Source: Dokdonia sinensis (GTDB lineage: Bacteria; Bacteroidota; Bacteroidia; Flavobacteriales; Flavobacteriaceae). From it: a DNA stretch of 64,000 bases. The stretch is from contig NZ_REFV01000001.1 in NCBI RefSeq assembly GCF_003688895.1, positions 289,503 to 353,502 of the forward strand, written 5' to 3'. The notes below the pieces were generated by a model. The model was given only the letters and a program-made list of their open reading frames with translations, ran no database searches and was not told the origin of the DNA. The position numbers were made by a program, and so were the translations under genes. Position 1 is the first letter of the stretch. The number at the start of each line of letters is the position of its first letter. Positions 728 to 64,000 of this stretch are shown here, piece by piece.

Positions 728-1840
728 TCAGAAAGTCTCTGGAAACGCCTTATTATAATTCACGAGAAGGGCGACCATATAACTGTAGCTTTTTATTCCA
801 TCAGGTTGATTATTTGCCTTGAGATAATTGGAGTAGAAGAGTTTAAAAAAAGGCTCGAGTGGATTATCCATAGCATCCCAAAAATCTCTGGACTGTTGAT
901 AGTTTGCCAGAATTCCTGGGGTTACGCTTTCGCGAAAGCGTGCTGCCACCTCAGCATCTCTCCTATATAAATCATTAAGGCAGTATCGCAACGCGAAGAT
1001 ACTTCCCGAGTACTGGAAAAATTTATCCTCATTGTTAAGCGTTGCCATAACGGCTATAAAATTTGCCTCATTCTCCTTTGCAAATCCCAGCTGATGTGCC
1101 ATCTCGTGACAACTCACTACTGGAAAACGGTGGGTGGGCATCATACCGTTGATGTGCGCCTCATTTGTAATAGGGTTCAGATAACCGCTATATCCCATTA
1201 TGGAAAGTGGATAGCTGAGTAGGGAAGTCTTGACACTCTTTGGCGGATAATTGAGTTTAGGGAACTGGGGTTTAAGGGAAGCGTAGCCTTGCAGGGTGTT
1301 AGCGTAGATTGCCGATTTTACCCTTCGGCTTTGCTCAGGGTACATTTGTGGGTACACCTCTTTATAGCTTACGGGCAAGCTATCGTTTGAGGAAAGCTGA
1401 GCGTGGAGCGCATTACTTTTGGCAATCAGTTTTTCGGTGATGTTTACGAGTTCATCGGTAGTGTAGTCATTTTCTATTCCAATAGCTTCGTGCAACGGTA
1501 GGCGGTAATAGTTCATTCCCCAAAGAAGGTGAAAGGCGAAGTACACAATGGACGCTAGGGCAAGCGTTCTTAGGAGAAATAGTTTTATGGTTTTAAAACG
1601 ATTTTTGAAGAGGCCAAAAATTTCGCGCAAAGCGAGCACAATAAGCGCCACATACATCACATCCCCAAAAGAAAATGGTAACCAACCCAGCGCATACCGA
1701 AAACCTTTAGAAATTATCGGATACAGACCGTTGCTGTAATATCCTTCAATGAACACTGGAAATTGCGCCAGTATGCGTACAATTCCCATCTGCACAAATA
1801 ATAGGAGACCGATAAAAAGGAGTTTGCGCTCTTGTTTCAT
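728..1840 (-). CDS. DUF3810 membrane protein with HExxH motif
   Basis: A 370-residue protein that I recognise as the Bacteroidota DUF3810 family, whose function is not established. Three hydrophobic segments lie in the first ~110 residues, followed by a soluble domain. Within it CHEMAHQLGFAKENEAN carries a zinc-protease-like HExxH with a downstream Glu in a gluzincin-like spacing, so a membrane-anchored metalloprotease is plausible but unproven. I chose the ATG at 1838-1840 (MKQERKLL), which places the first membrane segment at the N-terminus; an upstream in-frame ATG at 1885 would add 15 poorly hydrophobic residues. The gene contains a copy of the dispersed palindrome (read as RFRES) near its C-terminus and a copy of the second short repeat (read as EQSRR). 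Confidence 0.8.
   Translation of the reverse strand: MKQERKLLFIGLLLFVQMGIVRILAQFPVFIEGYYSNGLYPIISKGFRYALGWLPFSFGDVMYVALIVLALREIFGLFKNRFKTIKLFLLRTLALASIVYFAFHLLWGMNYYRLPLHEAIGIENDYTTDELVNITEKLIAKSNALHAQLSSNDSLPVSYKEVYPQMYPEQSRRVKSAIYANTLQGYASLKPQFPKLNYPPKSVKTSLLSYPLSIMGYSGYLNPITNEAHINGMMPTHRFPVVSCHEMAHQLGFAKENEANFIAVMATLNNEDKFFQYSGSIFALRYCLNDLYRRDAEVAARFRESVTPGILANYQQSRDFWDAMDNPLEPFFKLFYSNYLKANNQPDGIKSYSYMVALLVNYNKAFPETF
924..941. repeat. Dispersed palindrome, copy 1 (in DUF3810 gene)
   Basis: A perfect 18-bp palindrome, ACGCTTTCGCGAAAGCGT. It is in frame in the DUF3810 gene and read as RFRES. Confidence 0.9.
1320..1342. repeat. Short coding repeat, GCTGAGC..CGAAG family, copy 1
   Basis: The + strand reads CCCTTCGGCTTTGCTCAGGG, a diverged copy of the short repeat found at 3565, 18184, 33099 and 61046. 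It lies in frame in the DUF3810 gene and encodes EQSRR on the minus strand. Confidence 0.55.
1621..1633. repeat. Sister motif GCTTTGCGCGAAA (reverse), copy in DUF3810 gene
   Basis: The + strand reads TTTCGCGCAAAGC; in frame as ALREI on the minus strand. Confidence 0.45.
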
Positions 1841-1934
1841 TGGTGTAAAAATAAGAAATGTCTCTCCACAAGTTGCCCGTTTCATATCCCGTTAACTGTA
1901 TTTATCTATTATATTCGTATTCAAATCCCGATAT

Positions 1935-3371: not shown

Positions 3372-3755
3372 TACTAAAGTACAAGCCACCTCATAGTTGA
3401 TTGCTTTCTCCTTGAGCAATGCGTAAAACTCTGGGTTTTCTGTTCCGGGATTGAAAATGACGCGGTTTGGTTTCAGCGAGAGGATGTAGTCGTAATATTG
3501 TGACTGGCGTTTTGGGTTTAAGTATAATGTGACGGTATGAACGCTTTCTTGTGAGGTTTCTGCCCCTTCGACTTCGCTCAGGGTAAATTTCGCGAAAGCG
3601 GACTCAAAAGTTATAATATCTATATCACCCACAGTTCCTTCCATCAAACCAACTGCGGTCACGGGATGATTATAGGAACGCAATCGCTTGATTGCGATAT
3701 GGGAATATCGATTAGGTTTTAAGGAAGCACCGAGTACTAATGTGTGTTTTAACAT
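3348..3755 (-). CDS. CoA-binding domain protein (YccU-like) with repeat-derived insert
   Basis: A 135-residue Rossmann-type CoA_binding protein. TLVLGASLKPNRYSHIAIKRL is the nucleotide-binding turn, YNHPVTAVG the second strand, and VIFNPGTENPEF the C-terminal motif. The family is widespread and binds CoA or nucleotides; no specific reaction is known. Compared with the family's usual compact form, it has about 20 extra residues around 48-68 (SAFAKFTLSEVEGAETS). These are encoded by a composite of the window's two dispersed repeats (3565-3606). The insert falls between the glycine-rich G-D-I-D-I strand and the conserved HTVTLYLNP strand, so it probably forms a surface loop. The 3' end overlaps the symporter gene tail to tail. 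Confidence 0.85.
   Translation of the reverse strand: MLKHTLVLGASLKPNRYSHIAIKRLRSYNHPVTAVGLMEGTVGDIDIITFESAFAKFTLSEVEGAETSQESVHTVTLYLNPKRQSQYYDYILSLKPNRVIFNPGTENPEFYALLKEKAINYEVACTLVLLATNQY
3565..3606. repeat. Composite repeat (short coding repeat plus half palindrome), copy A
   Basis: CCTTCGACTTCGCTCAGGG is followed directly by TTTCGCGAAAGCGGACTCA. From 3570 to 3606 it matches 33103-33139 at 33 of 37 positions, although the host genes are unrelated and on opposite strands. Confidence 0.85.
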
Positions 3756-4157: not shown

Positions 4158-4160
4158 TTA
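4131..4160 (+). terminator. Second orphan rho-independent terminator
   Basis: AAGCGTCTC (4132-4140) pairs with GAGGCGCTT (4147-4155), with one G-U pair, and a T6 run follows on the + strand. It reaches the stop codon of the minus-strand TRIC gene; on the minus strand no T-run follows the stem. Confidence 0.7.
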
Positions 4161-7479: not shown

Positions 7480-8229
7480 ATGAGAAAATCGCTTGTAGTA
7501 TTCTTGATTTTTATTTCGCTTTGCGCGAAAGGCTACGCCGTTTCACTACAAGAGGAGCCACAAACTGTCGCCAAAGAAGTGCGCTACGACCAGCAGTCAC
7601 TTCCTGAAATTGAACTGGACGAAAATCAAATAAAAGAATACCAAGCAGACGAGGATTTTAACTACAAACAGACTATCGAAGAGGACAACTGGTGGACGCG
7701 CTTTAAAAAGTGGCTCTACGATGTTTATTACTCCTTTATGCGCTGGCTTATAGGCGATAACGCGGCCACAGGATTTTGGGGCGGTTTTGTACAAGCCCTA
7801 CCTTACATCCTGCTCGCTTTATTTTTGGGCGCGCTCGTTTGGCTCTTCCTGCGCATAGACAGCAACAGACTCGTTTTTGAAAGTGCGCGCGCACCCCAGG
7901 CATTTATGGGCGATGATGAGGATATTATCCAGAATCAGGACATTCAGGCGCTTATAGATAGTGCTCTCGCGAGTGGCAATTACCGCCTTGCGGTGAGATA
8001 TTACTATTTACTAGCCCTTCAAAAACTTTCTGCAAAAGATTACATAGACTGGCAGGTTCAGAAGACGAACCACGAGTATATTTTTGAAATTGAAGACTCT
8101 TACCGACGATCGTACTTTCGGCGTGTGACGGATATTTATGACTATATCTGGTACGGAAATTTTGAGGTAGATGAGTCCGCTTTCGCGAAAGCGCAATCCG
8201 CATTCAACCAACTAAACAGCACCTTATGA
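7480..8229 (+). CDS. DUF4129 domain membrane protein
   Basis: A 249-residue protein: signal peptide or first helix (residues 1-20), a long extracytoplasmic segment, one membrane helix near 105-125 (ILLALFLGALVWLFLRI) and a C-terminal DUF4129 domain with the conserved RLAVRYYYLLALQKLS helix and DIYDYIWYGNF. DUF4129 has no known reaction but is strongly linked to MoxR, DUF58 and transglutaminase-like membrane complexes. Near its C-terminus the dispersed palindrome is in frame (SAFAKAQSAF). Its signal region contains the one-base-longer variant GCTTTGCGCGAAA. It overlaps the next gene by 4 bp. Confidence 0.85.
   Translation: MRKSLVVFLIFISLCAKGYAVSLQEEPQTVAKEVRYDQQSLPEIELDENQIKEYQADEDFNYKQTIEEDNWWTRFKKWLYDVYYSFMRWLIGDNAATGFWGGFVQALPYILLALFLGALVWLFLRIDSNRLVFESARAPQAFMGDDEDIIQNQDIQALIDSALASGNYRLAVRYYYLLALQKLSAKDYIDWQVQKTNHEYIFEIEDSYRRSYFRRVTDIYDYIWYGNFEVDESAFAKAQSAFNQLNSTL
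7518..7530. repeat. Sister motif GCTTTGCGCGAAA, copy in DUF4129 signal region
   Basis: One of four copies in the window (others at 1621-1633 reversed, 12145-12157, 58906-58918). It equals the main palindrome's core with one extra G. Confidence 0.5.
8178..8193. repeat. Dispersed palindrome, copy 2 (in DUF4129 gene)
   Basis: CGCTTTCGCGAAAGCG in frame as AFAKA. It is preceded by TGAGTC, as in the two composite repeats at 3565 and 33099 (read on the appropriate strand). Confidence 0.9.
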
Positions 8230-10530: not shown

Positions 10531-11872
10531 TTTGGCAATCATTCGGTTTATAAAAGCATTGTATCTGCACAATCGTCTCTTTTATGCGCTTGCGCTTGTC
10601 GCTGTCGCGTTTTTGGTGTCGTATTGGGTCAACTTCATCTACCCTTTGGTCTGGTGGGCGTTATGGGGACTGATATTATTGTTTTTTATAGACTGCGTAG
10701 TCCTTTTTCGCGGAAGCGGAAATATTACCGCACAACGTTTACTACCAGAAAAATTTTCAAATAGCGATGAGAACGAGTTGCCTGTCAAAATTCAGAACAA
10801 CTATCCGTTTAAAGTTAGCCTCGATATTATAGACGAAATTCCGGTGCAATTCCAAAAACGGGATTTTAAAAAGGAACTTATCATTCCTGCAAAAGAATCT
10901 AGTCTTTTTACCTACGATTTGCGACCCGTGGAGCGTGGGGAATACTATTTTGGGAATTTGAATATCTATGCGAGCACCCGTTTTGGCATCGCAAAACGGC
11001 GCTTTACGTTTGAGAAAGACCAACTTGTAAAGGTATATCCTTCCTTTATTCAAATGAAAAAGTATGCCTTCCTAGCGCTGGATAACAGGCTTACCCTTCT
11101 AGGGATGAAAAAGATGCGACGCATAGGCCATACAATGGAGTTTGAGCAAATTAAGGATTATGTGCTGGGAGACGATGTGCGCACCATAAACTGGAAAGCC
11201 ACGGCAAAGCGTCACCAGCTGATGATCAATCAGTTTCAGGATGAAAAATCGCAACCAGTGTACTGTCTTATAGATGCCAGTCGCGCGATGAAAATGCCTT
11301 TTGAAGGATTGACTTTACTGGATTATGCGATTAATAGTACGCTCGCTTTTTCAAACATTGCGCTTAAGAAAAAGGACAAAGTGGGCTTAATCACCTTCGC
11401 CGAAGGTATAAAAAACCACCTTCCCGCCAGCAGTCGCAAGGTACACCTCAATACCATTCTGGAAGTGTTGTACAATGTAAACACGAAGTTTTTGGATAGT
11501 GATTTTGGCAGTTTATATAATCAAGTAAAACGCAAGGTTAGCCAGCGCAGTCTGCTGATAATGTACACTAATTTTGAGCACATCTCTTCTCTAGAAAGAC
11601 AGTTGGGGTATTTAAAGGCGCTTTCGCGAAAGCATATCCTCGTCGTAATCTTTTTTATAAACACAGAGCTGGACGAACTGCTCAACACTCCTGCCGAAGA
11701 CTTACCGACAGTTTACCACAAAACCATCGCTCAAAAAGCCGACTATGATAAGAAAGTGATGGCCGCAACGCTCGAAAAGTACGGGATACAGACCATCCTC
11801 ACTAAGCCAGAAGACCTTACTGTGAATACAATTAACAAGTATCTGGAAATTAAAGCGCGGGGAATTTTGTAA
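10502..11872 (+). CDS. DUF58 domain protein (MoxR partner)
   Basis: A protein of about 456 residues: two helices near the N-terminus (LFYALALVAVAFLVSYWV and a second), a beta-rich middle, and a DUF58/VWA-like C-terminal half with the signature LGDDVRTINWKATAKRHQLMI and a degenerate metal-site strand CLIDASRAMKM. Such proteins are MoxR clients. The start is uncertain: the ATG at 10502 overlaps the MoxR gene by 29 bp, whereas a TTG at 10532 would start just after the MoxR stop. A palindrome copy at 11620 is in frame as LSRK. This is the last gene of the run begun by SpoIIM. Confidence 0.87.
   Translation: MYNRLKSHDSLAIIRFIKALYLHNRLFYALALVAVAFLVSYWVNFIYPLVWWALWGLILLFFIDCVVLFRGSGNITAQRLLPEKFSNSDENELPVKIQNNYPFKVSLDIIDEIPVQFQKRDFKKELIIPAKESSLFTYDLRPVERGEYYFGNLNIYASTRFGIAKRRFTFEKDQLVKVYPSFIQMKKYAFLALDNRLTLLGMKKMRRIGHTMEFEQIKDYVLGDDVRTINWKATAKRHQLMINQFQDEKSQPVYCLIDASRAMKMPFEGLTLLDYAINSTLAFSNIALKKKDKVGLITFAEGIKNHLPASSRKVHLNTILEVLYNVNTKFLDSDFGSLYNQVKRKVSQRSLLIMYTNFEHISSLERQLGYLKALSRKHILVVIFFINTELDELLNTPAEDLPTVYHKTIAQKADYDKKVMAATLEKYGIQTILTKPEDLTVNTINKYLEIKARGIL
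11620..11633. repeat. Dispersed palindrome, copy 3 (in DUF58 gene)
   Basis: GCTTTCGCGAAAGC, in frame as LSRK (third possible reading frame). Confidence 0.9.
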
Positions 11873-13504: not shown

Positions 13505-13909
13505 TTAAAACTTCATCATCCTCCGTAACAAAGGAATCTCCACCACAACAAACCCCGCCAAAATCAAGAAACTATAAACCATCACATTAGACACATCAAA
13601 CTCAAAGTCCAATCGCGGTAATTCCCAAGAGGGTGCTTGACTCGTAACCTCAGCAACCGCATTGCTGAACATTGTAGATTCCTTTCCCGTAAACATCACA
13701 TATCCCAAAACACTAACGATTACCACGGCAATTCCCCACCATACTCGTTTTGAAATGAGTGGTTCATACACAATCGTTTTTGAAGCTTCAAGTGCTTCAA
13801 CTTTCTGCATTATCTGCGCAGTAAAGTCTGTCGCAGGCTCTTCCAGTCCTGCAGACTTTATCATTTTATCGGTAAACGTATTGAGTAATTTATTTTTTTT
13901 AGTTTCCAT
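13505..13909 (-). CDS. Putative single-pass membrane anti-sigma factor
   Basis: A protein of about 134 residues, starting at METKKNKLL (an upstream ATG adds three residues). The N-terminal ~70 residues are charged and cytoplasmic in character. A helix around 72-88 (VWWGIAVVIVSVLGYVMF) and a second near the C-terminus (VYSFLILAGFVVVEIPLL) follow. It is translated from within the end of the upstream ECF sigma gene (11-bp overlap). I see no zinc-binding ZAS motif. The anti-sigma role is inferred only from position and layout. Confidence 0.6.
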   Translation of the reverse strand: METKKNKLLNTFTDKMIKSAGLEEPATDFTAQIMQKVEALEASKTIVYEPLISKRVWWGIAVVIVSVLGYVMFTGKESTMFSNAVAEVTSQAPSWELPRLDFEFDVSNVMVYSFLILAGFVVVEIPLLRRMMKF

Positions 13910-14477
13910 AATGTGCACTCAAGTTCGGTAATTTAGATGTAATAATCTCGTATAATTTCTTTCGGCTACGATACAATTTTACTTTTACGTGGTTCTCCTT
14001 TAGCCCAGTAACGCTAGCGATTTCTTTTAAGGATTGCTCTTCCAAATAAAATAAGGTCACGAGAAACGCTTCTGTTTCTGGCAGTTCTTGGATGCATTCA
14101 GAAATTTGAGCGGTGAATTCTCTTGCTTCCATTTGCTCCAGAACATTTGCAATTCCATCTGCTGTAATGTCATCGTTCAGGTCGTAGGCTTGATGTGTGG
14201 GTTGGTTACGCTTTCGCGAAAGCGTATCTAAGCATCTATTATATGTAATCCTGTACAACCACGTACTGAATTTAGACCTCCCACCAAAAGTCGACAACTT
14301 CTGAAATGACTTTACAAAAACATCCTGCGCGACCTCCTCTGCTTCCTCACGCTGTTTGAGCATCCGTAGGCAAAGTGTAAAAACCAATCCTTTGTGTCGC
14401 TCAATGAGCGTGGCAAAGGCTTGCGTGTCCCCACCCAAAGTCTGGTCTATAAAATACTGGTCGTCTTGATGGGTCAT
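13899..14477 (-). CDS. ECF-type RNA polymerase sigma factor (left module)
   Basis: A 192-residue sigma-70 family protein with only regions 2 and 4. Region 2: AFATLIERHKGLVFTLCLRML, EEAEEVAQDVFVKSF and STWLYRITYNRCLDTLSRK. Region 4: ELPETEAFLVTLFYLEEQSLKEIASV and GLKENHVKVKLYRSRKKL. The palindrome at 14207 is in frame at the end of region 2 (LSRK). The start lies beside the G-rich repeat array and faces the second ECF gene at 14808. It likely forms a two-gene unit with the membrane protein that follows and responds to an envelope signal. Confidence 0.92.
   Translation of the reverse strand: MTHQDDQYFIDQTLGGDTQAFATLIERHKGLVFTLCLRMLKQREEAEEVAQDVFVKSFQKLSTFGGRSKFSTWLYRITYNRCLDTLSRKRNQPTHQAYDLNDDITADGIANVLEQMEAREFTAQISECIQELPETEAFLVTLFYLEEQSLKEIASVTGLKENHVKVKLYRSRKKLYEIITSKLPNLSAHYGN
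14207..14226. repeat. Dispersed palindrome, copy 4 (in ECF sigma gene)
   Basis: A perfect 20-bp palindrome centred on TTTCGCGAAA and flanked by TACGC/GCGTA. In frame as LSRKR. Confidence 0.9.
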
Positions 14478-22107: not shown

Positions 22108-22123
22108 CGCTTTCGCGAAAGCG
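22108..22123. repeat. Dispersed palindrome, copy 5 (intergenic)
   Basis: CGCTTTCGCGAAAGCG, 31 bp upstream of the Sua5/YciO start codon. Confidence 0.9.
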
Positions 22124-25761: not shown

Positions 25762-26087
25762 ACCAGGGTGTAAATTACGGTTTTGAAGTGGTATTTTAGA
25801 AGCCAAAAACGGTATTTTTAACCGCTTTTTTCAACAGTCAGATTCAGTATTAACTGAACAAGAATATGGAATTGAGTGTTTACGCTTTCGCGAAAGCCTA
25901 CTAAGCATAGTCCAAATTGCGTACTAAACGTAGTAGAAATAGCGCACCCTCATTAGTAACCAAAATGGAAAAATTTTAGGCTTAGTCAAAGCAACACTTC
26001 ACTCACCCAAAGGTGCGTATGGCTCATTATAAGTTTAAGAACGTGGATGGAAGCCCTAAGTTTATTGTGAACTAAAACATAACTATT
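25762..26087. other. 326-bp spacer with palindrome and an 18-codon open frame
   Basis: Holds a dispersed palindrome at 25884 and, at 26019-26075, an ATG-started open frame of 18 residues (MAHYKFKNVDGSPKFIVN) ending 12 bp before the next gene. I recognise nothing else. The tiny frame could be a leader peptide, a decayed gene end, or chance. Confidence 0.4.
25884..25897. repeat. Dispersed palindrome, copy 6 (intergenic)
   Basis: GCTTTCGCGAAAGC upstream of the helicase start. Confidence 0.9.
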
Positions 26088-32845: not shown

Positions 32846-33964
32846 ATGAACCTTCAACAAAGAATTAACGCTTTTGACGCACTAGGAACTTTCTTGAGCC
32901 AGTTTTCCCGTAAAGAAATTGCTCAAAAAAAGAATATTCCGCACAATGACCTCTTCTTTGATGGATTTAGGCATCAGATGAAACTTGCTGGGGAGCATAA
33001 CAATTGGTTTACAGAGGAGAATATTCTATACGCCATTGAAGGTTGGTCGCAATCCCTTACTGAGGCTAAATTAAATAAATGGCTGAAAGGTTACGCTACT
33101 TTGACTACGCTCAGCACAAATTTCGCGAAAGCGGACTCAGACGCAGCAGAAAAAGCAGATTCTCAAAAAACTGTTGCCGTAATTATGGCAGGGAATATTC
33201 CGCTAGTGGGTTTTCACGATTTCCTAAGCGTTCTTATTACGGGACACAACTTCGTAGGAAAACAATCCTCAAACGATAAACACCTCCTCCCCTTTCTTGC
33301 CAAATACCTAGAATACGTCGAGCCAGCATTTAAAGGTCGCATCGCATTTACCGAAGAAAAATTACCCGAACACGATGCTGTTATCGCCACTGGAAGCGAC
33401 AATACCGCACGTTACTTTGAATACTATTTCGGTAAAAAACCGAATATCATACGCAAGAACCGCAACTCTGTCGCAGTTCTGACTGGAAAGGAAACGCAGG
33501 AAGAGCTCGAAGCTTTAGGTGAGGATGTTTTCAGATATTTTGGTCTGGGATGTCGCAATGTTTCAAAATTATATGTTCCAGAAGATTACGACTTTGACGC
33601 ATTCTTTAAAGCGATGTACCCGTGGCATACGATGATGGACAAAGCGAAGTATGCAAATAATTACGACTACAATAAGGCGGTTTATTTAATGAGCCTTTTT
33701 GACCTATTAGAAAACGGGTTCTTAATGCTTAAAGAAGATGAAAGCTACGGCTCGCCCATTGCCACTTTATTCTACGAGAAATACAGCGCCCCAGAGGCCT
33801 TGGCCGAAAAACTTAGTGCAGATAATGAGAAGATTCAATGTGTGGTGAGTTCACATTTTAGGGAAAGCGATATCACCACCATTCCCTTTGGGAAAACCCA
33901 ACAGCCAGAATTGCACGACTATGCTGATGGTGTGGATACTATTGAATTTTTGACAACAATTTGA
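32846..33964 (+). CDS. Acyl-CoA reductase (LuxC-like)
   Basis: A 372-residue protein of the LuxC/acyl-CoA reductase family (aldehyde-dehydrogenase fold), which reduces acyl-CoA or acyl thioester to aldehyde with NADPH. The conserved blocks VAVIMAGNIPLVGFHDFLSVL, ATGSDNTARYFEYYFGKKP and FRYFGLGCRNVSKLYVP (with the catalytic Cys) are intact. The start MNLQQRINAF at 32846 follows the promoter. At ~80-97 it has the composite repeat segment LSTNFAKADSDAA, in a variable surface region just before the nucleotide-binding strand. Confidence 0.88.
   Translation: MNLQQRINAFDALGTFLSQFSRKEIAQKKNIPHNDLFFDGFRHQMKLAGEHNNWFTEENILYAIEGWSQSLTEAKLNKWLKGYATLTTLSTNFAKADSDAAEKADSQKTVAVIMAGNIPLVGFHDFLSVLITGHNFVGKQSSNDKHLLPFLAKYLEYVEPAFKGRIAFTEEKLPEHDAVIATGSDNTARYFEYYFGKKPNIIRKNRNSVAVLTGKETQEELEALGEDVFRYFGLGCRNVSKLYVPEDYDFDAFFKAMYPWHTMMDKAKYANNYDYNKAVYLMSLFDLLENGFLMLKEDESYGSPIATLFYEKYSAPEALAEKLSADNEKIQCVVSSHFRESDITTIPFGKTQQPELHDYADGVDTIEFLTTI
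33099..33140. repeat. Composite repeat (short coding repeat plus half palindrome), copy B
   Basis: CTTTGACTACGCTCAGC followed by AAATTTCGCGAAAGCGGACT; 33 of 37 positions (33103-33139) match copy A at 3570-3606. In frame in the acyl-CoA reductase gene. Confidence 0.85.
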
Positions 33965-35162: not shown

Positions 35163-35184
35163 TTACGCTTTCGCGAAAGCGTAA
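35163..35184. repeat. Dispersed palindrome, copy 7 (serC-serA spacer)
   Basis: The longest perfect copy, 22 bp, with TTACGC/GCGTAA arms around TTTCGCGAAA. Intergenic. Confidence 0.92.
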
Positions 35185-38160: not shown

Positions 38161-38495
38161 GAAATAACACAAAACATATCCTCCAGAAATGGAAAGCAGC
38201 TATTCTTATACTGACTTTCCTTATTCCGCTTGGGGTAAGTTTTGCGCATAGCCTCGAGGGGCACGAGCATTTTGATACGTGTAAGGTCGCTTCAGACACG
38301 CACGTGCATGAGAATGATCTAGATTGTTCTATAGGAGATATACAGCTTGTAAAAATAGGGATGTACGCTTTCGCGAAAGCGGAAAAAACAATACTCACCA
38401 TTCCTTCTGAAAACGCATTTTTTTATTCCTACGCTATTGTATCGCTTGATACAAAAATCCTTGCAGACAGAGGCCCACCGCTTGTTAAGACTTGA
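38157..38495 (+). CDS. Small His-rich exported protein
   Basis: A 112-residue protein starting with GTG. A helix or signal sequence at 14-31 (AAILILTFLIPLGVSFAH) is followed by HSLEGHEHFDTC and ASDTHVHENDLDC, giving seven His and two Cys within ~26 residues. This suggests a periplasmic metal-binding segment. The dispersed palindrome at 38366 is in frame as AFAKA. I know no named family. The position directly upstream of a TonB receptor suggests a role in metal capture or sensing (inference). Confidence 0.6.
   Translation: MRNNTKHILQKWKAAILILTFLIPLGVSFAHSLEGHEHFDTCKVASDTHVHENDLDCSIGDIQLVKIGMYAFAKAEKTILTIPSENAFFYSYAIVSLDTKILADRGPPLVKT
38366..38381. repeat. Dispersed palindrome, copy 8 (in His-rich protein gene)
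   Basis: CGCTTTCGCGAAAGCG, in frame as AFAKA. Confidence 0.9.
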
Positions 38496-43334: not shown

Positions 43335-43378
43335 ATTGGGTATTAAGTAATTTTCAAGTTTTGAGTAGCGGTAATTCC

Positions 43379-43392
43379 GCTTTCGCGAAAGC
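43379..43392. repeat. Dispersed palindrome, copy 9 (intergenic)
   Basis: GCTTTCGCGAAAGC, 45 bp upstream of the NAD(P)HX repair gene start. Confidence 0.9.
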
Positions 43393-43554
43393 ATACCTAT
43401 TCTCATTGTAATATATTCTCTAAAAATAACATCATTTATCGTAAAAGACGAATATCCACTCGAAAACGAGTGTGCATAAATTTTAACACCCCAAATAACA
43501 ATGGCAGGTTTCTATTTATTTTTTTACGTGTAGCTTTACTAAAATTCAAATGGA

Positions 43555-45936
43555 ATGACAAAAAACATTTTTGTAGGGCTTTTTTTTGCGCTATTCACGA
43601 TGAATGCCTTAGCTCAGGAAAAGTTCACTTTAAGCGGAACCGTTACTGATGTAGAAAGTAACGAAACGCTCATAGGGGTAAACTTACTCTTCCCTGAAAT
43701 TTCTAATGGTGTTGCAACAAACTCTTACGGCTTTTACTCTATTACATTACCTGCAGGCACGTATCAATTACGTCTGAGCTACCTCGGGTATGAGGACCGA
43801 TTAGAAACCATTGTTCTGGACTCCAGTATACGTCGTAATTTTGCAATGAAACCATCCAGCGAGTCCCTAGATGAAATTGTGCTCGAAGAAAAGGTGGAAA
43901 AAGTGAGCATACGCAAACCGCAAATGAGTGTAAATGCGCTCTCTGCAGAGTCTATAAAAAGGATTCCTGTTGTTCTGGGTGAGGCAGATGTAATTAAGGC
44001 AATTCTATTACTCCCTGGAGTCACAAGTGCTGGCGAGGGAGCTTCTGGATTTAACGTACGTGGTGGTGCTGCAGACCAGAATTTAATCTTACTAGACGAG
44101 GCTACGATATTTAATTCTTCACACCTTTTTGGGTTTTTCTCTGTTTTTAATCCTGATGCTATTAAAGACCTTAAGTTATATAAAGGTGGTATTCCGGCCC
44201 GTTATGGGGGCAGAGTTTCCTCTGTTCTGGATATTTATCAAAAAGAAGGAAATAGTAAAAAACTTAAAGTAAACGGCGGCATAGGAGCTGTTGCAAGTAG
44301 GCTGCTAGTGGAAGGTCCAATAAAGAAAGATGTAGGTGCATTCCTCATAGGTGGTCGTGCCTCTTATGCACACTTGTTTTTGCCCCTTTTTGACATAGAC
44401 AGTAAGGCGTATTTTTATGACCTGAACACAAAGCTAAACTATAAACTCAATGAAAATAACAACCTGTATCTCTCAGGGTATTTTGGTCGCGACCTATTTA
44501 GTATAGAAGATAGTTTTGAGAATATTTATGGTAATGCAGTTTTAAATCTTAGGTGGAATCATCTGTTTTCTGACAAACTATTTTCTAACGCATCCCTGAT
44601 TTATAGCGATTATTATTATGGGCTAGGCTTAGATTTTGTTGGATTTAATTGGAATAGTGGCATCTCTAATATTAACCTTAAGTATGATTTTACATATTAC
44701 CTTAATGATGCAGTAAAAGTATATACGGGAATTAATAATCTCTATTACACCTTTAATCCGGGTAAAATAGAACCAGATGGCCCTGATTCTGGAATTGTAG
44801 AAGAACAACTGACACGCAAGTATGCTAACGAGTTTGCGGCTTATGTAGATGTAGAGCATAAACTCACAGAAAACCTCAGTATGGAATACGGCCTGCGTTG
44901 GAGCAATTTTACCAGACTAGGTCAGGACGAAGTAAATGTGTATCGCAATGATCAGCCCGTGACCTTTGACCCTTTCCTACTGATTTACCAAAGCGCTGAA
45001 CCTACAAACGTAGATACTTCATTCTCCCGAAGTGATAAACTGGCAACGTTTAATAGTTTTGAGCCTAGACTTTCGGCGAGTTATGCCTTTAATGATGATA
45101 CTTCGGTGAAGGCTAGTTATACTAGGCTTGTTCAGTATTTACACTTGCTTTCAAATACGAGTTCGCCTACGCCACTAGATGTGTGGACACCTTCTGGACA
45201 ATTTGCCGCTCCTCAAGTATTAGACCAATATGCTGTAGGATTCTTTAAGAATTTCCGCTTTCGCGAAAGCGAATACACCATAGAAACCGAAGCATTTTAC
45301 AAAGATATAGATGGTCGTATAGACTACATAGACGGCGCGCAACTCATTGCAAACGATGCGATAGAGCAAGTAATCCTTCAAGGAGAAGCTCGGGCTTACG
45401 GTCTAGAATTTTTCCTGCGTAAGAATGAAGGGAAATTTACTGGATTTTTATCATACACGCTTTCTAAATCTGAGCAGCGTACTCCAGGAAGAAATGAAAA
45501 CGAGATAGGAATCAACCGTGGAGAGTGGTACAACACACCGTACGACAAGACCCACGACATCTCGATGAATCTAAATTATGAACTAAATGACCAATGGCGT
45601 TTTGGCAGCAATTTATTATTTCAAACGGGGCAACCTACAAACTTCCCGGTGGGTCAGTTTGAATTTCAGGGTATTGTTATCCCGACATACGGACCGAGAA
45701 ACAAACAACGACTTCCGGATTATCATAGGCTTGACCTAAGCGCAACGCTCACGCCTAAGGCAAACAGAGGTCGCAAATGGCAATCTGAGTGGGTATTTAG
45801 CGTATACAATGTCTATAACCGCAGAAATGCTGCTTCTATAAATTTCCGCCAGAATGATCAAACCTTCAGAAATGAGGCGGTCCGCACATCGATTTTTGGT
45901 ATCATTCCTTCTGTGACTTATAATTTTAAATTTTAA
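43555..45936 (+). CDS. TonB-dependent receptor paired with DUF4249 proteins
   Basis: A 793-residue protein: signal peptide (ending ALAQ), CarboxypepD_reg-like domain (FTLSGTVTDVESNETLIGVN), plug with LPGVTSAGEGASGFNVRGGAAD and YKGGIPARYGGRVSSVLD, and an outer-membrane barrel ending PSVTYNFKF. This plug type regularly precedes DUF4249 genes; the ligand is not known. A palindrome copy is in frame in the barrel (FRFRESEY). The stop TAA overlaps the next ATG by one base, so expression is coupled. Confidence 0.92.
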   Translation: MTKNIFVGLFFALFTMNALAQEKFTLSGTVTDVESNETLIGVNLLFPEISNGVATNSYGFYSITLPAGTYQLRLSYLGYEDRLETIVLDSSIRRNFAMKPSSESLDEIVLEEKVEKVSIRKPQMSVNALSAESIKRIPVVLGEADVIKAILLLPGVTSAGEGASGFNVRGGAADQNLILLDEATIFNSSHLFGFFSVFNPDAIKDLKLYKGGIPARYGGRVSSVLDIYQKEGNSKKLKVNGGIGAVASRLLVEGPIKKDVGAFLIGGRASYAHLFLPLFDIDSKAYFYDLNTKLNYKLNENNNLYLSGYFGRDLFSIEDSFENIYGNAVLNLRWNHLFSDKLFSNASLIYSDYYYGLGLDFVGFNWNSGISNINLKYDFTYYLNDAVKVYTGINNLYYTFNPGKIEPDGPDSGIVEEQLTRKYANEFAAYVDVEHKLTENLSMEYGLRWSNFTRLGQDEVNVYRNDQPVTFDPFLLIYQSAEPTNVDTSFSRSDKLATFNSFEPRLSASYAFNDDTSVKASYTRLVQYLHLLSNTSSPTPLDVWTPSGQFAAPQVLDQYAVGFFKNFRFRESEYTIETEAFYKDIDGRIDYIDGAQLIANDAIEQVILQGEARAYGLEFFLRKNEGKFTGFLSYTLSKSEQRTPGRNENEIGINRGEWYNTPYDKTHDISMNLNYELNDQWRFGSNLLFQTGQPTNFPVGQFEFQGIVIPTYGPRNKQRLPDYHRLDLSATLTPKANRGRKWQSEWVFSVYNVYNRRNAASINFRQNDQTFRNEAVRTSIFGIIPSVTYNFKF
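45256..45271. repeat. Dispersed palindrome, copy 10 (in TonB receptor gene)
   Basis: CGCTTTCGCGAAAGCG, in frame as RFRES. Confidence 0.9.
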
Positions 45937-47731: not shown

Positions 47732-47751
47732 TCCGCTTTCGCGAAAGCGGA
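47732..47751. repeat. Dispersed palindrome, copy 11 (intergenic)
   Basis: A perfect 20-bp palindrome with TCCGC/GCGGA arms, between the second DUF4249 gene and the M23 peptidase gene. Confidence 0.92.
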
Positions 47752-53137: not shown

Positions 53138-53199
53138 GTAGCGTTTTAATTAGGGGGAACGGTATTTAGATGACAAAAATAGGGTAAATAAAATAATAT

Positions 53200-53213
53200 T
53201 TTCGCGAAAGCGG
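53200..53213. repeat. Half copy of dispersed palindrome (intergenic)
   Basis: TTTCGCGAAAGCGG with the left arm lost; between the desulfurase and TSP3-like gene starts. Confidence 0.7.
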
Positions 53214-54168: not shown

Positions 54169-54710
54169 TTCGTATTTACATTCTGGTAAATGTAAACTTC
54201 TAGTGCACCTACTCCATACTTTTGGTAGTCGGCATCATAATACTTAACATTATCATATCGCCCAAAAAGATACTCCAACTCTGCACGTAAAACACCCTTG
54301 CCTACGCCGTGTATAAACACTACTTTCTGGATACGTTTTGAAATGGCAAATTTGAGCTGTCGCTCGGCGGTTTCCGTTTGTAATGTGAGCATATCATAGT
54401 TGCTCATTCCACGTTGATTTGTAAGCTGGTGTATATGTAAATCTACCTCCATAGGAGGAAGGTTGCGCTCTTTAGGTTTTACGCGCGTAGTAGCGTTTCT
54501 TTTTGGCATTTCCTTTTGGGCGACTATAGAAGAAGGAACACTTAATACACTTTTATCTAGACGTTTAAGAGGGATAAGTTCGCTTTCGCGAAAGCGTACA
54601 ATAAACCCATCACTACTCTCCACACTCACATACTCGTCATCAATTGCGACTACTTCACCTTCCAGATCATCGTCTAGAGCCATAACCGCCTGCCCAATAG
54701 TGAATTGCAT
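54165..54710 (-). CDS. Smr-domain protein
   Basis: A 181-residue protein: a small beta-domain (residues 1-50, VMALDDDLEGEVVAIDDEYV) and a C-terminal Smr domain, MEVDLHIHQLTNQ, RQLKFAISKRIQKVVFIHGVGKGVLRAELEYLF with the HGxG motif, ending GALEVYIYQ. Smr domains are endonucleases with DNA-nicking or RNA-cleaving activity, sometimes fused to MutS2; here it is free-standing. The dispersed palindrome is in frame near residue 40 (IVRFRESEL). Confidence 0.9.
   Translation of the reverse strand: MQFTIGQAVMALDDDLEGEVVAIDDEYVSVESSDGFIVRFRESELIPLKRLDKSVLSVPSSIVAQKEMPKRNATTRVKPKERNLPPMEVDLHIHQLTNQRGMSNYDMLTLQTETAERQLKFAISKRIQKVVFIHGVGKGVLRAELEYLFGRYDNVKYYDADYQKYGVGALEVYIYQNVNTN
54581..54596. repeat. Dispersed palindrome, copy 12 (in Smr gene)
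   Basis: CGCTTTCGCGAAAGCG, in frame as RFRES. Confidence 0.9.
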
Positions 54711-57426: not shown

Positions 57427-57452
57427 TCGCTTACATAACTTCATTAGAAGAG

Positions 57453-59899: not shown

Positions 59900-62437
59900 A
59901 TGAAATATAAATTACTGCTTGTTATTTGTTTAGTTTCCGCTTTCGCGAAAGCGCAAGACTATTTCTTCTCAAAATACGCACCCTTTGACCAAGAAATCCC
60001 AACTCCAGAAGCATTCCTGGGATACCCCATAGGGGAACAACATACACGCCACGACCTTATCGTTGCATACCTAGAAAAACTCGCCCAAGTTTCTCCCAGG
60101 GCCACTATCGCGTCCTACGGTAAAACGCACGAAAACCGAAAACTCGTAATGCTCACCATCTCAACAGAGGGAAATCTTTCTAATCTACCTTCCATAAAAA
60201 AACAGCACCTCGCGTTTGTGGACACCGCCGAGAAAGAAACTAACTACGACGAAGTACCCATTTTTATCCAGCTAGGATACAACGTACACGGCAATGAACC
60301 CTCCAGTTCTGAAGCCGCCCTACTTACTGCATACACGCTCGTTGCATCACAGCATCCCGAAATCAAAAAATATCGTGAGAACAGTATCATTTTTCTAGAC
60401 CCTACTATAAACCCAGATGGTCGTGACCGCCATACACAATGGGCAAATAGCTTTAAAGGGAGTCCGCTGGTGTCAGATAATATAGATGCAGAACATACAG
60501 AAATGTGGCCTCGCGGACGGACAAATCACTACTGGTTTGACCTGAATCGCGATTGGTTGCTGGCCATAAATCCAGAAAGTCGCGGGAAGTTGGATTGGTA
60601 TCACGAGTGGTATCCTAACGTTGTCACAGATTTTCACGAGATGGGAACTAATAGCACTCACTTTTTTGAGCCTATGTTACCCATAGGAAGTGAGAACCCA
60701 ATTATGCCCAAGGAAAATTATGAAGACCTCAACAATCTTTTTGCACCATATTTTTCGAGTGCGCTAGATGAGATTGGGTCGTTCTATTTTACAAAAGAAG
60801 CCTTTGACGGGACGTATCCCGGCTACGGTTCCTCCTACCCAGACCTTCAGGGTGCACTTGCCCTACTTTTTGAGCAGGCCAGTAGTCGCGGGCATTTACA
60901 GGACACAGATTATGGTACGATAAGCTTTCCGTTTACCATTCGTAATCAGTATACCTCAGGGATGGCAACTGTTAAAGCTTCGGTGGAAAATAAGGGGGCG
61001 TTGAGGAAATACCAGCAAGACTTTTTTAATTCCGCTGTAGGCTCTGCTGAGCGTAGTCGAAGTGCGAAAGCAAAATTTGACCAAGCCACCGCATACGAAT
61101 TTGGCGATCCCAAAGATAAAAACCGAACCAAAGCCTTTATAGACAAACTCCTAAAACACCGCATCAAAAGCTACAAAAAAGGCGATGGAAGATATGTCGT
61201 TCCCGTACTCCAACCCCAAAAGCGAATGGTACAATCCTTTTTTGAAACCTATAAGAAGTACCGTGATAGTGTGTATTACGATGCAAGCGCGTGGTCTGTT
61301 TCAAATTTTTATAATATGAAACATAAAGCGTTGAGCGCTACATCTAGCTTGGGTCAGGAGGTATTATCTACAGACGATATTGCAACGGTCACTCCTGTAT
61401 CAAAAACAAACTACGCTTACCTTGTAGATTATAACGACTATAACGCCCCAGCCCTACTTCATCATTTACAAAGCAACGGTATAAAAGTAGCTACGGCCTT
61501 TAAACCATTTACCGCCAAAACTACTGCTGGCAATATCGATTTTAACTACGGAACGCTTATGATTCCTGTGAGCCGTCAGGATGAAAATTCCCAAGAGGTA
61601 TTTGACATTTTGAGAGAAGCACAAGAAAAATTTCAAGTACCCGTATATGCCACAAATACGGGTTTCAGTCTCAAAGGCGTAGATCTAGGAAGCCGAAATT
61701 TACAGGCTATCGAAACCCCAAAACCTTTAATGATTATAGGAGACGGCACAAGCTCCTATGAAGCTGGCGAAGTGTGGCACCTACTAGACACCCGTGTTGG
61801 TATGCCTCTCACAAAAGTGCTGATGAGTAATTTTAATCGCGTTGCTTTAGGAGATTACAATACGCTCATTATGGTTTCAGGCAACTACAGTAGTTTAAGC
61901 AAAGGAGATAAAGAACGACTTAGGAATTGGCTTGAAGAAGGAAACACCCTTATTACAATTGCAAATGCAACTTCCTGGGCCGTGAATGCCGAAATCGTAA
62001 AAGAAAAACTCATTAAAAAAGAAAAAGATTCTACAGAACTAAAGTCTCGGGAGCCTTATGTAGATGCTGGTCCTAATCGCGGAAAACAGCGTGTAGGCGG
62101 TGCAATATTTGAGGTTGACCTAGACTTGACACATCCCTTGGGCTTTGGTTATACCACAGATAAATTACCCGTTTATAAGAATAACAATGTATGGCTTCAA
62201 CCTAGCAATAATGAGTACAATACCGTTGCCCAATACACAGAAAATCCACACATTGATGGATTTATTTCTGATGAAAACCTTAATGACTATATGAAAAAAA
62301 GCGCCTCCTTAGTCGTGAGCCGTGTAGGAAGAGGGCGCGTGATTCTATTTGCAGATAATCCCAACTTTAGGGGAAGCTGGTACGGAACCAACAAGTTGTT
62401 TCTCAATGCTATCTTCTTCGGCAGTTTAATTGATTAA
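59900..62437 (+). CDS. M14-family zinc carboxypeptidase
   Basis: An 845-residue protein with signal peptide MKYKLLLVICLVSAFAKA (palindrome-encoded AFAKA at residues 14-18). Zinc ligands: His130 and Glu133 in YNVHGNEPSS, and a His in TDFHEMGTNSTHF; catalytic Glu probably in LALLFEQASS. The C-terminal part (from ~residue 590) looks like a class I amidotransferase-like domain (PLMIIGDGTSSYEAGEVWHLL). It should remove C-terminal residues from peptides outside the cytoplasm. It has an AERSRS repeat insert (61046). Two bases separate its stop from the next gene. Confidence 0.9.
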   Translation: MKYKLLLVICLVSAFAKAQDYFFSKYAPFDQEIPTPEAFLGYPIGEQHTRHDLIVAYLEKLAQVSPRATIASYGKTHENRKLVMLTISTEGNLSNLPSIKKQHLAFVDTAEKETNYDEVPIFIQLGYNVHGNEPSSSEAALLTAYTLVASQHPEIKKYRENSIIFLDPTINPDGRDRHTQWANSFKGSPLVSDNIDAEHTEMWPRGRTNHYWFDLNRDWLLAINPESRGKLDWYHEWYPNVVTDFHEMGTNSTHFFEPMLPIGSENPIMPKENYEDLNNLFAPYFSSALDEIGSFYFTKEAFDGTYPGYGSSYPDLQGALALLFEQASSRGHLQDTDYGTISFPFTIRNQYTSGMATVKASVENKGALRKYQQDFFNSAVGSAERSRSAKAKFDQATAYEFGDPKDKNRTKAFIDKLLKHRIKSYKKGDGRYVVPVLQPQKRMVQSFFETYKKYRDSVYYDASAWSVSNFYNMKHKALSATSSLGQEVLSTDDIATVTPVSKTNYAYLVDYNDYNAPALLHHLQSNGIKVATAFKPFTAKTTAGNIDFNYGTLMIPVSRQDENSQEVFDILREAQEKFQVPVYATNTGFSLKGVDLGSRNLQAIETPKPLMIIGDGTSSYEAGEVWHLLDTRVGMPLTKVLMSNFNRVALGDYNTLIMVSGNYSSLSKGDKERLRNWLEEGNTLITIANATSWAVNAEIVKEKLIKKEKDSTELKSREPYVDAGPNRGKQRVGGAIFEVDLDLTHPLGFGYTTDKLPVYKNNNVWLQPSNNEYNTVAQYTENPHIDGFISDENLNDYMKKSASLVVSRVGRGRVILFADNPNFRGSWYGTNKLFLNAIFFGSLID
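59938..59953. repeat. Dispersed palindrome, copy 13 (M14 signal peptide)
   Basis: CGCTTTCGCGAAAGCG, in frame as AFAKA within the signal peptide. Confidence 0.9.
61041..61066. repeat. Short coding repeat GCTGAGCGTAGTCGAAG, copy in M14 gene
   Basis: GCTGAGCGTAGTCGAAG at 61046-61062, in frame as AERSRS. It is followed by GTGCGAAAGC, which may be a decayed half of the palindrome. Confidence 0.8.
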
Positions 62438-62439
62438 AT

Positions 62440-64000
62440 ATGAAAAAACTTTATGTACTAGCAATAGCCTTTTTGGTTTTCGCTTTCGCGAAAGCGTACT
62501 CACAAACACAACAAGGCCCGTTTAACCAACTCATCATACGTGGTGCAACGCTCATAAACGGCGATGGGGCACCACCTATAGGTCCTGTAGATATTATTGT
62601 AGAAAATAATATTATCAAAAATGTGCAAGTCGTAGGCTATCCAGGGGTTGCGATAGATGAAAGCAAACGCCCTAAATTGAAGGCTGGTGGTAAGGAACTA
62701 GATGCAACCGGAATGTATGTCCTTCCCGGTTTTGTAGATATGCACGGTCACATAGGTGGCACGGCTCAGGGTGCAGACTGGGATTATGTCTTTAAACTCT
62801 GGATGGCGCACGGGATTACAACCGTAAGAGAGCCTTCTGGCCGAAGCATAGACTGGACACTTGACTTAAAAAAGAAATCGGCCAAAAATGAGATAATTGC
62901 ACCTCGTATTGTGGCACACACGGGATTTGGCGCAGGAAGCAAAGAACCCATCATTACTGCCGAACAAGCTAGAGAGTGGGTGCGCAGTAATGCAAAAAAA
63001 GGTGCCGATGGTATCAAATTTTTTGGCGCAGAGCCTCACATCATGCAGGCCGCCCTTGAGGAAAATAAAAAACTGGGACTTACCTCATCAATGCACCATG
63101 CACAAATGAGCGTAGCACGATGGAATGTTCTTAATAGTGCCAGAGCAGGTCTAACCACAATGGAACATTGGTATGGATTGCCAGAAGCGCTATTTGAAGA
63201 TCGTACCGTACAGAACTATCCGCTAGATTATAATTATAACAATGAGCAACACCGTTTTGGAGAAGCTGGAAGACTTTGGGAACAAGCTGCAAAACCTTAC
63301 TCTGATCATTGGAATGCTGTGATGGATGAATTACTCGCATTAGACTTTACCCTTGACCCCACTTTTAATATTTATGAAGCCAGCAGAGACCTAATGCGGG
63401 CACGCCGCGCCGAGTGGCACGAGGATTACACGTTGCCTTCATTATGGCGTTTCTATCAACCGAGTAAGGTTTCTCACGGAAGCTATTGGCACTTTTGGGG
63501 AACCGAGGAGGAAGTTCATTGGAAAAACAACTACCGTCTATGGATGACTTTTATCAATGAGTATAAAAACCGAGGTGGACGAGTGACTGCAGGCTCGGAC
63601 TCTGGATTTATATTTCAGCTATACGGATTTGCTTATATCCGAGAGCTCGAACTCTTGCGTGAGGCTGGGTTCCATCCGCTAGAGGTTATCAGGTCTGCGA
63701 CGCTCAATGGGGCTGAGGCACTGCGTATGGACGATAAAATAGGCTCCATACAACCGGGAAAACTAGCAGATATGGTTATCGTAAATGAAAATCCATTGCA
63801 GAATTTGAAGGTACTTTACGGAACCGGCGCGATTAAACTTACGGATGATAATGAAGTTATACGCACGGGTGGAGTTTCTTATACAATTAAAGATGGAATC
63901 ATTTATAACGCTAAGCAACTGCTTAAAGAAGTAAAAGAAATGGTGGATAAAGCTAAGGCAGAAGAGAATTTTAAGATTTTACAGCCTGGGGTAAAAAACT
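62440..64000 (+). CDS. Amidohydrolase-family exported enzyme, 3' end outside window
   Basis: From ATG at 62440 the frame is open for 520 codons to the window edge. Signal peptide MKKLYVLAIAFLVFAFAKA with the palindrome-encoded AFAKA at residues 15-19. Amidohydrolase features: NQLIIRGATLINGDGAPP, metal motif LPGFVDMHGHIGG (HxH), SMHHAQMS, AGSDSGF (metal Asp). Such imidazolonepropionase-like enzymes cleave cyclic amides or dipeptides. It follows the M14 peptidase with two bases between, and both are exported, so joint breakdown of extracellular peptides is likely. Substrate not known. Confidence 0.9.
   Translation, partial: MKKLYVLAIAFLVFAFAKAYSQTQQGPFNQLIIRGATLINGDGAPPIGPVDIIVENNIIKNVQVVGYPGVAIDESKRPKLKAGGKELDATGMYVLPGFVDMHGHIGGTAQGADWDYVFKLWMAHGITTVREPSGRSIDWTLDLKKKSAKNEIIAPRIVAHTGFGAGSKEPIITAEQAREWVRSNAKKGADGIKFFGAEPHIMQAALEENKKLGLTSSMHHAQMSVARWNVLNSARAGLTTMEHWYGLPEALFEDRTVQNYPLDYNYNNEQHRFGEAGRLWEQAAKPYSDHWNAVMDELLALDFTLDPTFNIYEASRDLMRARRAEWHEDYTLPSLWRFYQPSKVSHGSYWHFWGTEEEVHWKNNYRLWMTFINEYKNRGGRVTAGSDSGFIFQLYGFAYIRELELLREAGFHPLEVIRSATLNGAEALRMDDKIGSIQPGKLADMVIVNENPLQNLKVLYGTGAIKLTDDNEVIRTGGVSYTIKDGIIYNAKQLLKEVKEMVDKAKAEENFKILQPGVKN
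62481..62496. repeat. Dispersed palindrome, copy 14 (amidohydrolase signal peptide)
   Basis: CGCTTTCGCGAAAGCG, in frame as AFAKA within the signal peptide. Confidence 0.9.

Follow-up and report, generated by a model that had tools for sequence, protein, structure and literature searches.

A perfect 14-bp palindrome occurs 857 times in the genome of Dokdonia sinensis from which the DNA analysed here was taken, against 0 occurrences of its reversed control, and is best read as a dispersed, clade-wide DNA signal. We lean slightly towards regarding it as a genome ruler, that is, a palindromic signal placed at near-regular intervals of 4-7 kb in three genera of a marine flavobacterial clade; a symmetric DNA-binding system not described so far would read it and would be obeyed by the phages too. 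If this is true, the palindrome would be the first uptake signal of palindromic form or else a novel mode of chromosome organisation in bacteria, and an uptake signal would in addition be a pointer to a DNA receptor in Bacteroidota. To our knowledge, no outer-membrane DNA receptor of Bacteroidota has been described, and we know of strongly iterated genomic signals from few groups. The case is a clean one: one palindrome in one clade, cultured strains with complete genomes, a sharply bounded core, flanks that can be measured and an even spacing. The Dokdonia palindrome makes the reason for iterated palindromes in genomes a testable question.

Copies in the window and in other genomes

The window, i.e., the whole stretch of 64,000 nucleotides analysed, contains all of the 14 perfect copies counted in an earlier note on this DNA, whose sites are real, although the starts it gave are 0-4 bp lower than the true ones. 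When up to 2 mismatches are allowed, 18 matches are obtained, against a mean of 0.16 in 100 shuffles of the window; three of the four 2-mismatch copies are the one-armed copies also reported in that note. The copies are listed below, with ORFs called mechanically in the analysis and strand signs referring to the ORFs.

926..939: perfect copy within ORF 728-1885 (-), reading RFRES; kept in 0 of 3 aligned Dokdonia species
8179..8192: perfect copy within ORF 7480-8229 (+), reading AFAKA; kept in 5 of 5 aligned Dokdonia species
11620..11633: perfect copy within ORF 10502-11872 (+), reading ALSRKH; intact in 2 of the 5 species aligned and with one mismatch in the other 3
14210..14223: perfect copy within ORF 13899-14477 (-), reading TLSRKR
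22109..22122: perfect copy in a spacer of divergent ORFs; not kept in the one species aligned (G155, 3 mismatches)
25884..25897: perfect copy in a spacer of divergent ORFs, adjoining helicase ORF 23425-25806
35167..35180: perfect copy in a spacer of tandem ORFs
38367..38380: perfect copy in the spacer of ORFs 37636-38160 and 38526-40922; kept in all 3 species aligned
43379..43392: perfect copy in ORF 41799-43406 (-), residues 5-10
45257..45270: perfect copy within ORF 43555-45936 (+), reading RFRES
47735..47748: perfect copy in a spacer of tandem ORFs
54582..54595: perfect copy within ORF 54165-54710 (-), reading RFRES
59939..59952: perfect copy in ORF 59900-62437 (+), residues 14-18 (AFAKA)
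62482..62495: perfect copy close to the start of an ORF continuing beyond position 64000
3586..3599: one-armed near-miss AATTTCGCGAAAGC, 2 mismatches
33119..33132: one-armed near-miss AATTTCGCGAAAGC, 2 mismatches; in G151, G152 and G154 a perfect copy is aligned, with a gap, at about this place
53198..53211: one-armed near-miss ATTTTCGCGAAAGC, 2 mismatches

ORF 23425-25806 encodes a PcrA/UvrD-like helicase, with NCBIfam scores below the curated cut-offs, and the copy at 59939..59952 probably comes after a signal-peptide-like hydrophobic stretch, judging from the sequence. The copy at 38367..38380 also falls inside a 113-codon frame that is perhaps no gene.

The palindrome is genome-wide rather than confined to the window, and its excess over the Markov expectation, the comparison proposed in the earlier note, is very large. 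Thus, 433.5 kb of the window contig contain 101 copies, whereas Markov models built after masking the copies predict 0.0005-0.006 (orders 1-5) or 0.28 (order 6). The assembly comprises 3,647,482 bp in 43 contigs, with a GC content of 39.3% in those 433.5 kb. All 18 Dokdonia genomes searched, the window genome included, have 369-905 copies, and copy density drops as genome size rises (Spearman -0.68, P 0.01, n=13, with five of the 18 genomes excluded as less than 93% complete and several sizes rounded).

In a survey of the Flavobacteriaceae, more than 500 copies of TTTCGCGAAA were present in 6 of 397 genomes, belonging to 3 of 237 genera (Dokdonia and two more), the remaining 391 genomes having 34 or fewer. 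These three genera form one group (99/99, 98% of bootstraps) in an AddB plus ComEC tree with nine control genera. In this tree one branch is long and the composition of five rows deviates, two of these rows being motif-rich; AddB alone does not resolve the group. No copies were found at 80 named Bacteroidota loci around purB, where de novo counts of iterated palindromes flagged four cases, namely a tandem-repeat gene of Flavobacterium selenitireducens and three words consisting of A and T. Neither the 14-mer nor a 16-mer is mentioned in PubMed Central open text, and the same text, judged by titles or abstract openings, yielded no account of this palindrome, whether as TTTCGCGAAA or in connection with Dokdonia or flavobacteria, and none of highly iterated palindromes in Bacteroidetes.

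Conservation, flanks and spacing

In the 433.5 kb, 62 of the 101 copies lie inside ORFs and 39 in the 9% of the DNA between ORFs (P ~1e-15), only 4 of these 39 being placed between convergent ORFs. As had been claimed, coding copies use all three frames (37, 9 and 16 in frames 0, 1 and 2), the commonest reading being AFAKA. Since all frames are used and copies lie in genes and spacers alike, the constraint acts on the DNA rather than on one peptide, which agrees with the earlier note; identity between species reaches 96.2% within the 14-mer but 75.4% in the flanks 21-60 bp to each side of it. Few motif-free orthologues of coding copies could be aligned, and in those seen the residues at the motif are mostly different.

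Taking into account all 24 ordered species pairs outside a close trio, 85 of 110 aligned copy-pairs (53 distinct sites; the pairs share species and are not independent) are intact between Dokdonia species, against 312 of 8654 (3.6%) control random 14-mers. An 11-pair subset gives 49 of 58 against 162 of 4101, and in this subset the edge of conservation is sharp at the limits of the 14-mer. The copies of the window itself are intact in 10 of 17 aligned copy-pairs, corresponding to five distinct sites, three of which are kept in at least one species. They are no less frequent in DNA that does not align, since against each of G151, G152 and G154 10 of the 14 are unaligned, a result that in part reflects weak alignment and broken synteny. 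The sites mostly differ from genus to genus: of seven coding sites with a match in Dokdonia, one is common to genera.

The core is flanked symmetrically by zones of about 20 bp, C-poor on the 5' side and G-poor on the 3' side, in genes as well as in spacers. G and T are favoured 5' of the core and A and C 3' of it; in 558 half-sites, the frequency of C in the 5' flank, otherwise about 0.17, drops to 0.02-0.10 at positions -19 to -4 (0.136 at -8). In the same half-sites C occupies position -1 in 87%, and position -2 carries A in 58% and C in 21%. The division into ACGC-armed and CCGC-armed groups made earlier is thus right in part, as it mirrors a graded preference for certain bases. The footprint is weaker at near-miss copies, G207 displays a weak flank bias, and the strengths of the left and right flanks are uncorrelated. 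A hairpin or terminator was considered and rejected, opposite flank positions pairing no more than base composition predicts. With copies of up to 2 mismatches masked, the 8-base half GCGAAAGC occurs 17 times against 14.4 expected, and nine half-words tested reach 0.7-2.2 times the expectation (e.g., CGAAAGCG, 23 against 10.3).

The spacing of the copies is more even than random, with coefficients of variation of 0.65, 0.70 and 0.44 in the three genera, against 0.98-0.99 for random placement, and with 2, 0 and 0 gaps shorter than 1 kb, where 20.7, 8.8 and 19.4 would be expected. There is one copy per 4-7 kb across the three genera, and in G258 all 97 gaps lie within 1.27-10.4 kb. Along the complete chromosome of G149, 20 sampled 20-kb pieces contain 113 copies (variance/mean 0.88), and these pieces, together with 80 kb of the same genome, display no obvious trend between origin and terminus, as judged by inspection; copy density in these pieces, a check advised in the earlier note, lends no support to an origin or terminus mark. 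Four motif-free gaps longer than 10 kb in G000, whose genes are unannotated, have ordinary GC and ORF density, and Rfam gave no match at four loci around them.

Copies are also present in phage records. Among the IMG/VR matches listed, all of them virus records chosen because they contain copies, one example has 7 copies in 37.4 kb; there are also copies in each of two Mu-like phages that are about 70% similar to each other. Two Nonlabens phages, whose hosts are not known to be motif-rich, have 0 copies, one of them being covered over 35,000 of its 35,652 bases.

A proposed symmetric reader and its possible functions

Copy number, clade, conservation, footprint, spacing, the differing sites of the genera and the copies in phage records are observations; from these we infer a dimeric reader and selection or drive acting on coverage, the role in DNA uptake being the most inferential part. 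In this explanation, which we prefer but hold tentatively, at somewhat less than an even chance, the most probable use of the palindrome would be the recognition of self-DNA in natural transformation. A two-fold symmetric protein would read the full 14-mer as duplex DNA, sensing about 20 bp on each side of it, and new copies would arise by point mutation in place and not by duplication of a larger unit. Copies would be retained if DNA stretches bearing one fare better while a nearby second copy adds little, and it is proposed that one copy per 4-7 kb and few short gaps result from this. In transformation, copy-bearing fragments would be preferred, and for this reason copies would spread and persist through drive, as in uptake sequences. 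ComEC was detected in all 16 motif-rich genomes tested, but its presence does not follow the motif, 11 of 12 motif-poor controls having it too. We know of no competence in Dokdonia. Counted against uptake were the copies in phage records, the palindromic nature of the motif, the fact that no receptor emerged, the 10 of 17 intact copy-pairs among the window's own copies, and the finding that these copies are no scarcer in unaligned DNA. Riemerella columbina, another flavobacterium, is described as preferring its own DNA in an excerpt of PMC7965970.

The chief rival of the uptake reading, though in our estimation rather unlikely, is a chromosome-organising site, at which an abundant intracellular dimer, a nucleoid or segregation protein, would bind once per 4-7 kb and so anchor or bridge the chromosome. 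A palindromic, symmetric site with long flanks, even spacing with an upper limit on gaps in g11, one of the other two motif-rich genera, and the lack of an obvious trend among the sampled pieces of G149 would all suit such a protein. The copies in phage records would fit as well, since resident phages would, in this view, retain them to make their own DNA conform to the order of the chromosome. However, density falls with genome size, when an organiser should scale with the DNA, and a candidate protein was not found.

It is improbable that the palindrome is a Chi-like site, at which an AddAB-type helicase-nuclease would be switched from degradation to recombination from either side. AddAB-type PDDEXK_1 genes are present in 28 of 28 genomes, but equally in motif-poor genera. 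A density of one copy per 4.3 kb is near that of E. coli Chi, copies occur in phage records, and the G/T-rich 5' flank on both strands would suit the loading of RecA, which prefers G/T-rich DNA; nevertheless, G207 has this bias in a weak form, and outside copies and near-copies all half-words tested stay within about 2.2 times their expectation. Moreover, known Chi sites are short (5-8 nt), polar, read as a single strand and not palindromic.

It is very improbable that a DNA methyltransferase, together with mismatch repair, generates the palindrome as a by-product, after Elhai's proposal for cyanobacterial HIP1, even though the palindrome is highly iterated and HIPs are, in the excerpted text of PMC4390886, usually accompanied by site-specific methyltransferases. 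In a comparison comprising three families, PF00145 was detected in 5 of 12 Dokdonia genomes tested, PF01555 above the cut-off in 0 of 12, and PF02086 in 9 of 12 (weakly in G155), the last being missing in G151, G152, G154, G010, G258 and G207. None of the three families tracks the motif, and G151, G154 and G258 have none of them above the cut-off, yet are motif-rich; a methylation site, one of the roles suggested in the earlier note, is thus not supported in a HIP1-like form by these three families. Finally, a mobile REP/BIME-like repeat spread by a transposase, or a terminator, can practically be dismissed: 39 of 101 copies do lie between ORFs, but the remaining 62 are inside them, only 4 spacer copies separate convergent ORFs, the flanks share a composition bias and not homology (against the short proliferating element once suggested), their opposite positions do not pair beyond chance, and A and C, rather than a T run, characterise the 3' side.

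Comparison with known systems

The sites of parS/Noc, matS and SlmA are likewise palindromes read by a dimer, the reader being putative in Dokdonia. They number tens per genome and are biased to or away from the terminus, whereas the Dokdonia copies number hundreds and are evenly spread, without origin or terminus bias in the sampled pieces. Chi of RecBCD/AddAB has a similar density and a G/T-rich side, but the Dokdonia site is palindromic, spans 14 bp and has halves without notable enrichment by themselves. With HIP1 (GCGATCGC) and the alternate cyanobacterial HIPs it shares being a highly iterated palindrome, clade-wide and present in genes and spacers, and we agree with the earlier note that the likeness is in abundance and not in sequence; its core is longer, it has flanks of about 20 bp, and no methyltransferase of the three families tested tracks it. 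Unlike REP/BIME elements, it has no copied unit of homologous extent and is not limited to spacers.

The closest parallels concern the USS of Pasteurellaceae and the DUS of Neisseriaceae, which also have hundreds to thousands of near-identical copies, far above chance, with even spacing, strict conservation, helper flanks and no locus specificity, many of them inside ORFs and yet enriched outside. According to excerpts of PMC1939737, 65% of H. influenzae uptake sequences are within ORFs, although they exceed expectation outside genes, and known uptake sequences are evenly spaced, without orientation bias, and non-palindromic. Excerpts of PMC2397512 describe a spacing that fits the size of recombined fragments, strict conservation and, as reported there, the absence of DUS from recently acquired genes, and those of PMC7811141 describe AT-rich flanks and drive. 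By contrast, the Dokdonia motif is a perfect 14-bp palindrome with symmetric flanks, placed once per 4-7 kb and present in phage records. As to scarcity in acquired DNA, the observations point both ways, copy density dropping as genomes grow and phage records containing copies. In function the motif would resemble the uptake sequences of Haemophilus and Neisseria; its palindromic form and its occurrence in phages keep it from being classed with them.

Abundance and distribution of the palindrome

The 14 perfect copies of GCTTTCGCGAAAGC that an earlier note had counted in the window are all present, and the palindrome occurs 857 times in the 3.65-Mb genome of Dokdonia sinensis, against 0 for a reversed control. 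The excess, for which a Markov comparison had been proposed, holds up: 101 copies are seen in 433.5 kb, and with copies masked 0.0005-0.006 are expected under models of order 1-5 and 0.28 under order 6. Within ORFs, which cover 91% of this DNA, lie 62 copies, with 39 between them. The coding copies use all three frames, as the same note had claimed (37/9/16 in frames 0/1/2), and 14 of the 62 fall within the first 90 nt (30 codons) of the ORF, where 8% would be expected (P 4e-4). The window copy at 59939-59952 encodes AFAKA 3' of a hydrophobic N-terminus; this peptide is able to form the end of a signal peptide, and the palindrome and an export signal may be mutually compatible. Early-codon copies were also observed at several places in contig C1.

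The palindrome is real, genome-wide and clade-specific, and no prior description of it was found in the open literature searched. Each of the 18 Dokdonia genomes searched, D. sinensis included, carries 369-905 copies. In a family sample of one genome per genus (n=149), at least one copy was detected in 31, and more than 17 only in D. sinensis and in G010, a genome outside Dokdonia. Counts of the inner 10-mer in 397 family genomes (237 genera) exceeded 500 in six genomes of three genera and reached at most 34 in each of the remaining 391. A phylum-wide draw of 395 genomes gave copies in 22, with a maximum of six apart from D. sinensis. The three motif-rich genera (Dokdonia, g11 and g191) are grouped against nine motif-poor genera in an AddB+ComEC tree (99/99, midpoint root), a grouping that AddB alone leaves unsettled.

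Few copies were read in motif-poor genera, and many of these sit in clusters common to genera (20 stretches, pairwise matches). These clusters (L089-L108, outside the three rich genera) are ~72-100% identical between genera and include an AcrB-family pump (RND efflux), an outer-membrane efflux protein and a copper-resistance-like multicopper oxidase; a pair of copies 933 bp apart recurs in several of these genera, and the clusters appear to have been moved horizontally. In a Flavobacterium selenitireducens gene (L180:4348-5965), tandem repeats lie mostly 201 bp apart, seven with TCGAATTCGA; its reading as an iterated palindrome was rejected in favour of a tandem-repeat gene.

Eighteen virus records, chosen for carrying copies among the matches listed, have between 1 and 7 copies: one has 7 in 37.4 kb, another 5 in 27.0 kb, and four more, 23.9-39.8 kb long, have 4 apiece. 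The seven-copy record (L263, IMG/VR 3300040781_000495) is Mu-like by its PHROGs transposase and partly similar to Winogradskyella phage Peternella_1 (10% of query). A Mu-like relative ~70% identical to it (L401, IMG/VR 3300035698_008001), reached by transposase yet already among the motif-scan matches, has two copies in 13.8 kb. No copy occurs in the fragments read from 14 tape-measure relatives that are more distant.

Spacing and turnover of sites

Copies are more evenly spaced than random placement, for which the gap CV is 0.98-0.99: it is 0.65 in D. sinensis (100 gaps), 0.70 in G207 of g191 (67) and 0.44 in G258 of g11 (97), and gaps below 1 kb number 2, 0 and 0 against 20.7, 8.8 and 19.4 expected. 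The first 100 copies of Dokdonia donghaensis DSW-1 behave alike (CV 0.74, P 0.001), with no obvious density trend in the pieces sampled along that genome. The g11 stretch (G258 C1:1-440000) is far more regular than Dokdonia, short and long gaps both being missing; its counts per 20 kb have a variance/mean of 0.21, and its longest gap is 10.4 kb, compared with a random mean of 22.8 kb (0/3000 trials as low). The longest gap is also short in G207 (P 0.025) and not unusual in D. sinensis (P 0.17).

Across all 24 ordered Dokdonia species pairs outside the close trio (Dokdonia sp. 4H-3-7-5, PRO95 and Dokd-P16), intact copies make up 85 of the 110 aligned, versus 312 of 8654 control 14-mers, a strong sample, not an independent one, with 53 distinct sites and overlapping pairs. 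Identity in these pairs is 96.2% inside the 14-mer and 75.4% at 21-60 bp either side, and in an 11-pair subset it falls sharply at the 14-mer edges. Within the trio, 82/95 copies are intact versus 2531/8289 controls. The window's own copies are weaker (10/17 intact; three of five alignable sites kept somewhere). Between genera, 46 coding sites were considered and one of the seven with a Dokdonia match is shared, in a comparison that covers part of the Dokdonia DNA and includes matches as low as 24% identity. Since sites mostly differ between genera, individual sites would turn over while the system persists.

Flank footprint

Across 558 half-sites, the frequency of C drops from a background of ~0.17 to 0.02-0.10 between -19 and -4 (0.136 at -8), and T and G become more frequent; -20 lacks the depletion and -21 has it partly. 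Every C-containing dinucleotide is down, and GG, GT, TG and TT are up. The bias is alike in coding and spacer copies, graded and weaker at near-misses, present over the same zone in g11, and weak in g191, chiefly out to about -8. No correlation in strength between left and right flanks was found, nor any pairing of opposite flank bases beyond expectation.

Perfect copies outnumber one-mismatch copies by 281 to 41 in 1.09 Mb of pooled Dokdonia DNA. After masking copies with up to two mismatches, the half GCGAAAGC is seen 17 times (14.4 expected), CGAAAGCG (23/10.3), CGCGAAAG (16/9.6) and CGCGAAA (71/48.4) are mildly in excess, and GCGAAAG is in deficit (49/67.2). The simplest reader of the palindrome would be a putative two-fold symmetric protein acting on duplex DNA. 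Outside the palindrome, the same pooled DNA strongly avoids GTCGAC (20 versus 79 expected, both strands) and holds twice the expected TCCGGA (98 versus 47).

Candidate roles

A tentative reading, which we favour, is that the palindrome could serve uptake-type self-recognition. A site for chromosome organisation would fit the palindromic form and the phage copies, but copy density declines with genome size (Spearman -0.68, P 0.01; 13 genomes at least 93% complete), which does not fit, and this role seems rather unlikely; copy number itself barely follows genome size in those genomes (Pearson 0.34, P 0.25). A Chi-like site is improbable; AddAB-type genes occur in 16/16 rich genomes tested, yet in 12/12 controls too. 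Still less can be said for a HIP or methylation role: the presence of three methyltransferase families does not track the palindrome, and none exceeds the cut-off in 4H-3-7-5, Dokd-P16 or G258. A mobile repeat is hardly credible. Some likelihood is left for roles outside these readings.

As for uptake-type self-recognition, ComEC is present in 16/16 rich genomes tested, yet in 11/12 controls too, and no reader was identified among the machinery examined (the three methyltransferase families, ComEC and AddAB-type genes). According to passages of published work, uptake sequences are marked by even spacing, tolerance of any locus, a strictly kept core, flanks that assist it and a surplus outside genes (PMC1939737, PMC2397512, PMC7811141); one of these works attributes their build-up to drive, with no need for a gain in fitness (PMC7811141). 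The Dokdonia motif resembles them in being evenly spaced, tolerated at any locus, strict in its core, accompanied by helper flanks and enriched outside genes; unlike them, it is a palindrome and is also present in phages. It may be said to behave like an uptake sequence, but it is not classed as one, because the defining non-palindromic feature fails and uptake itself is putative.
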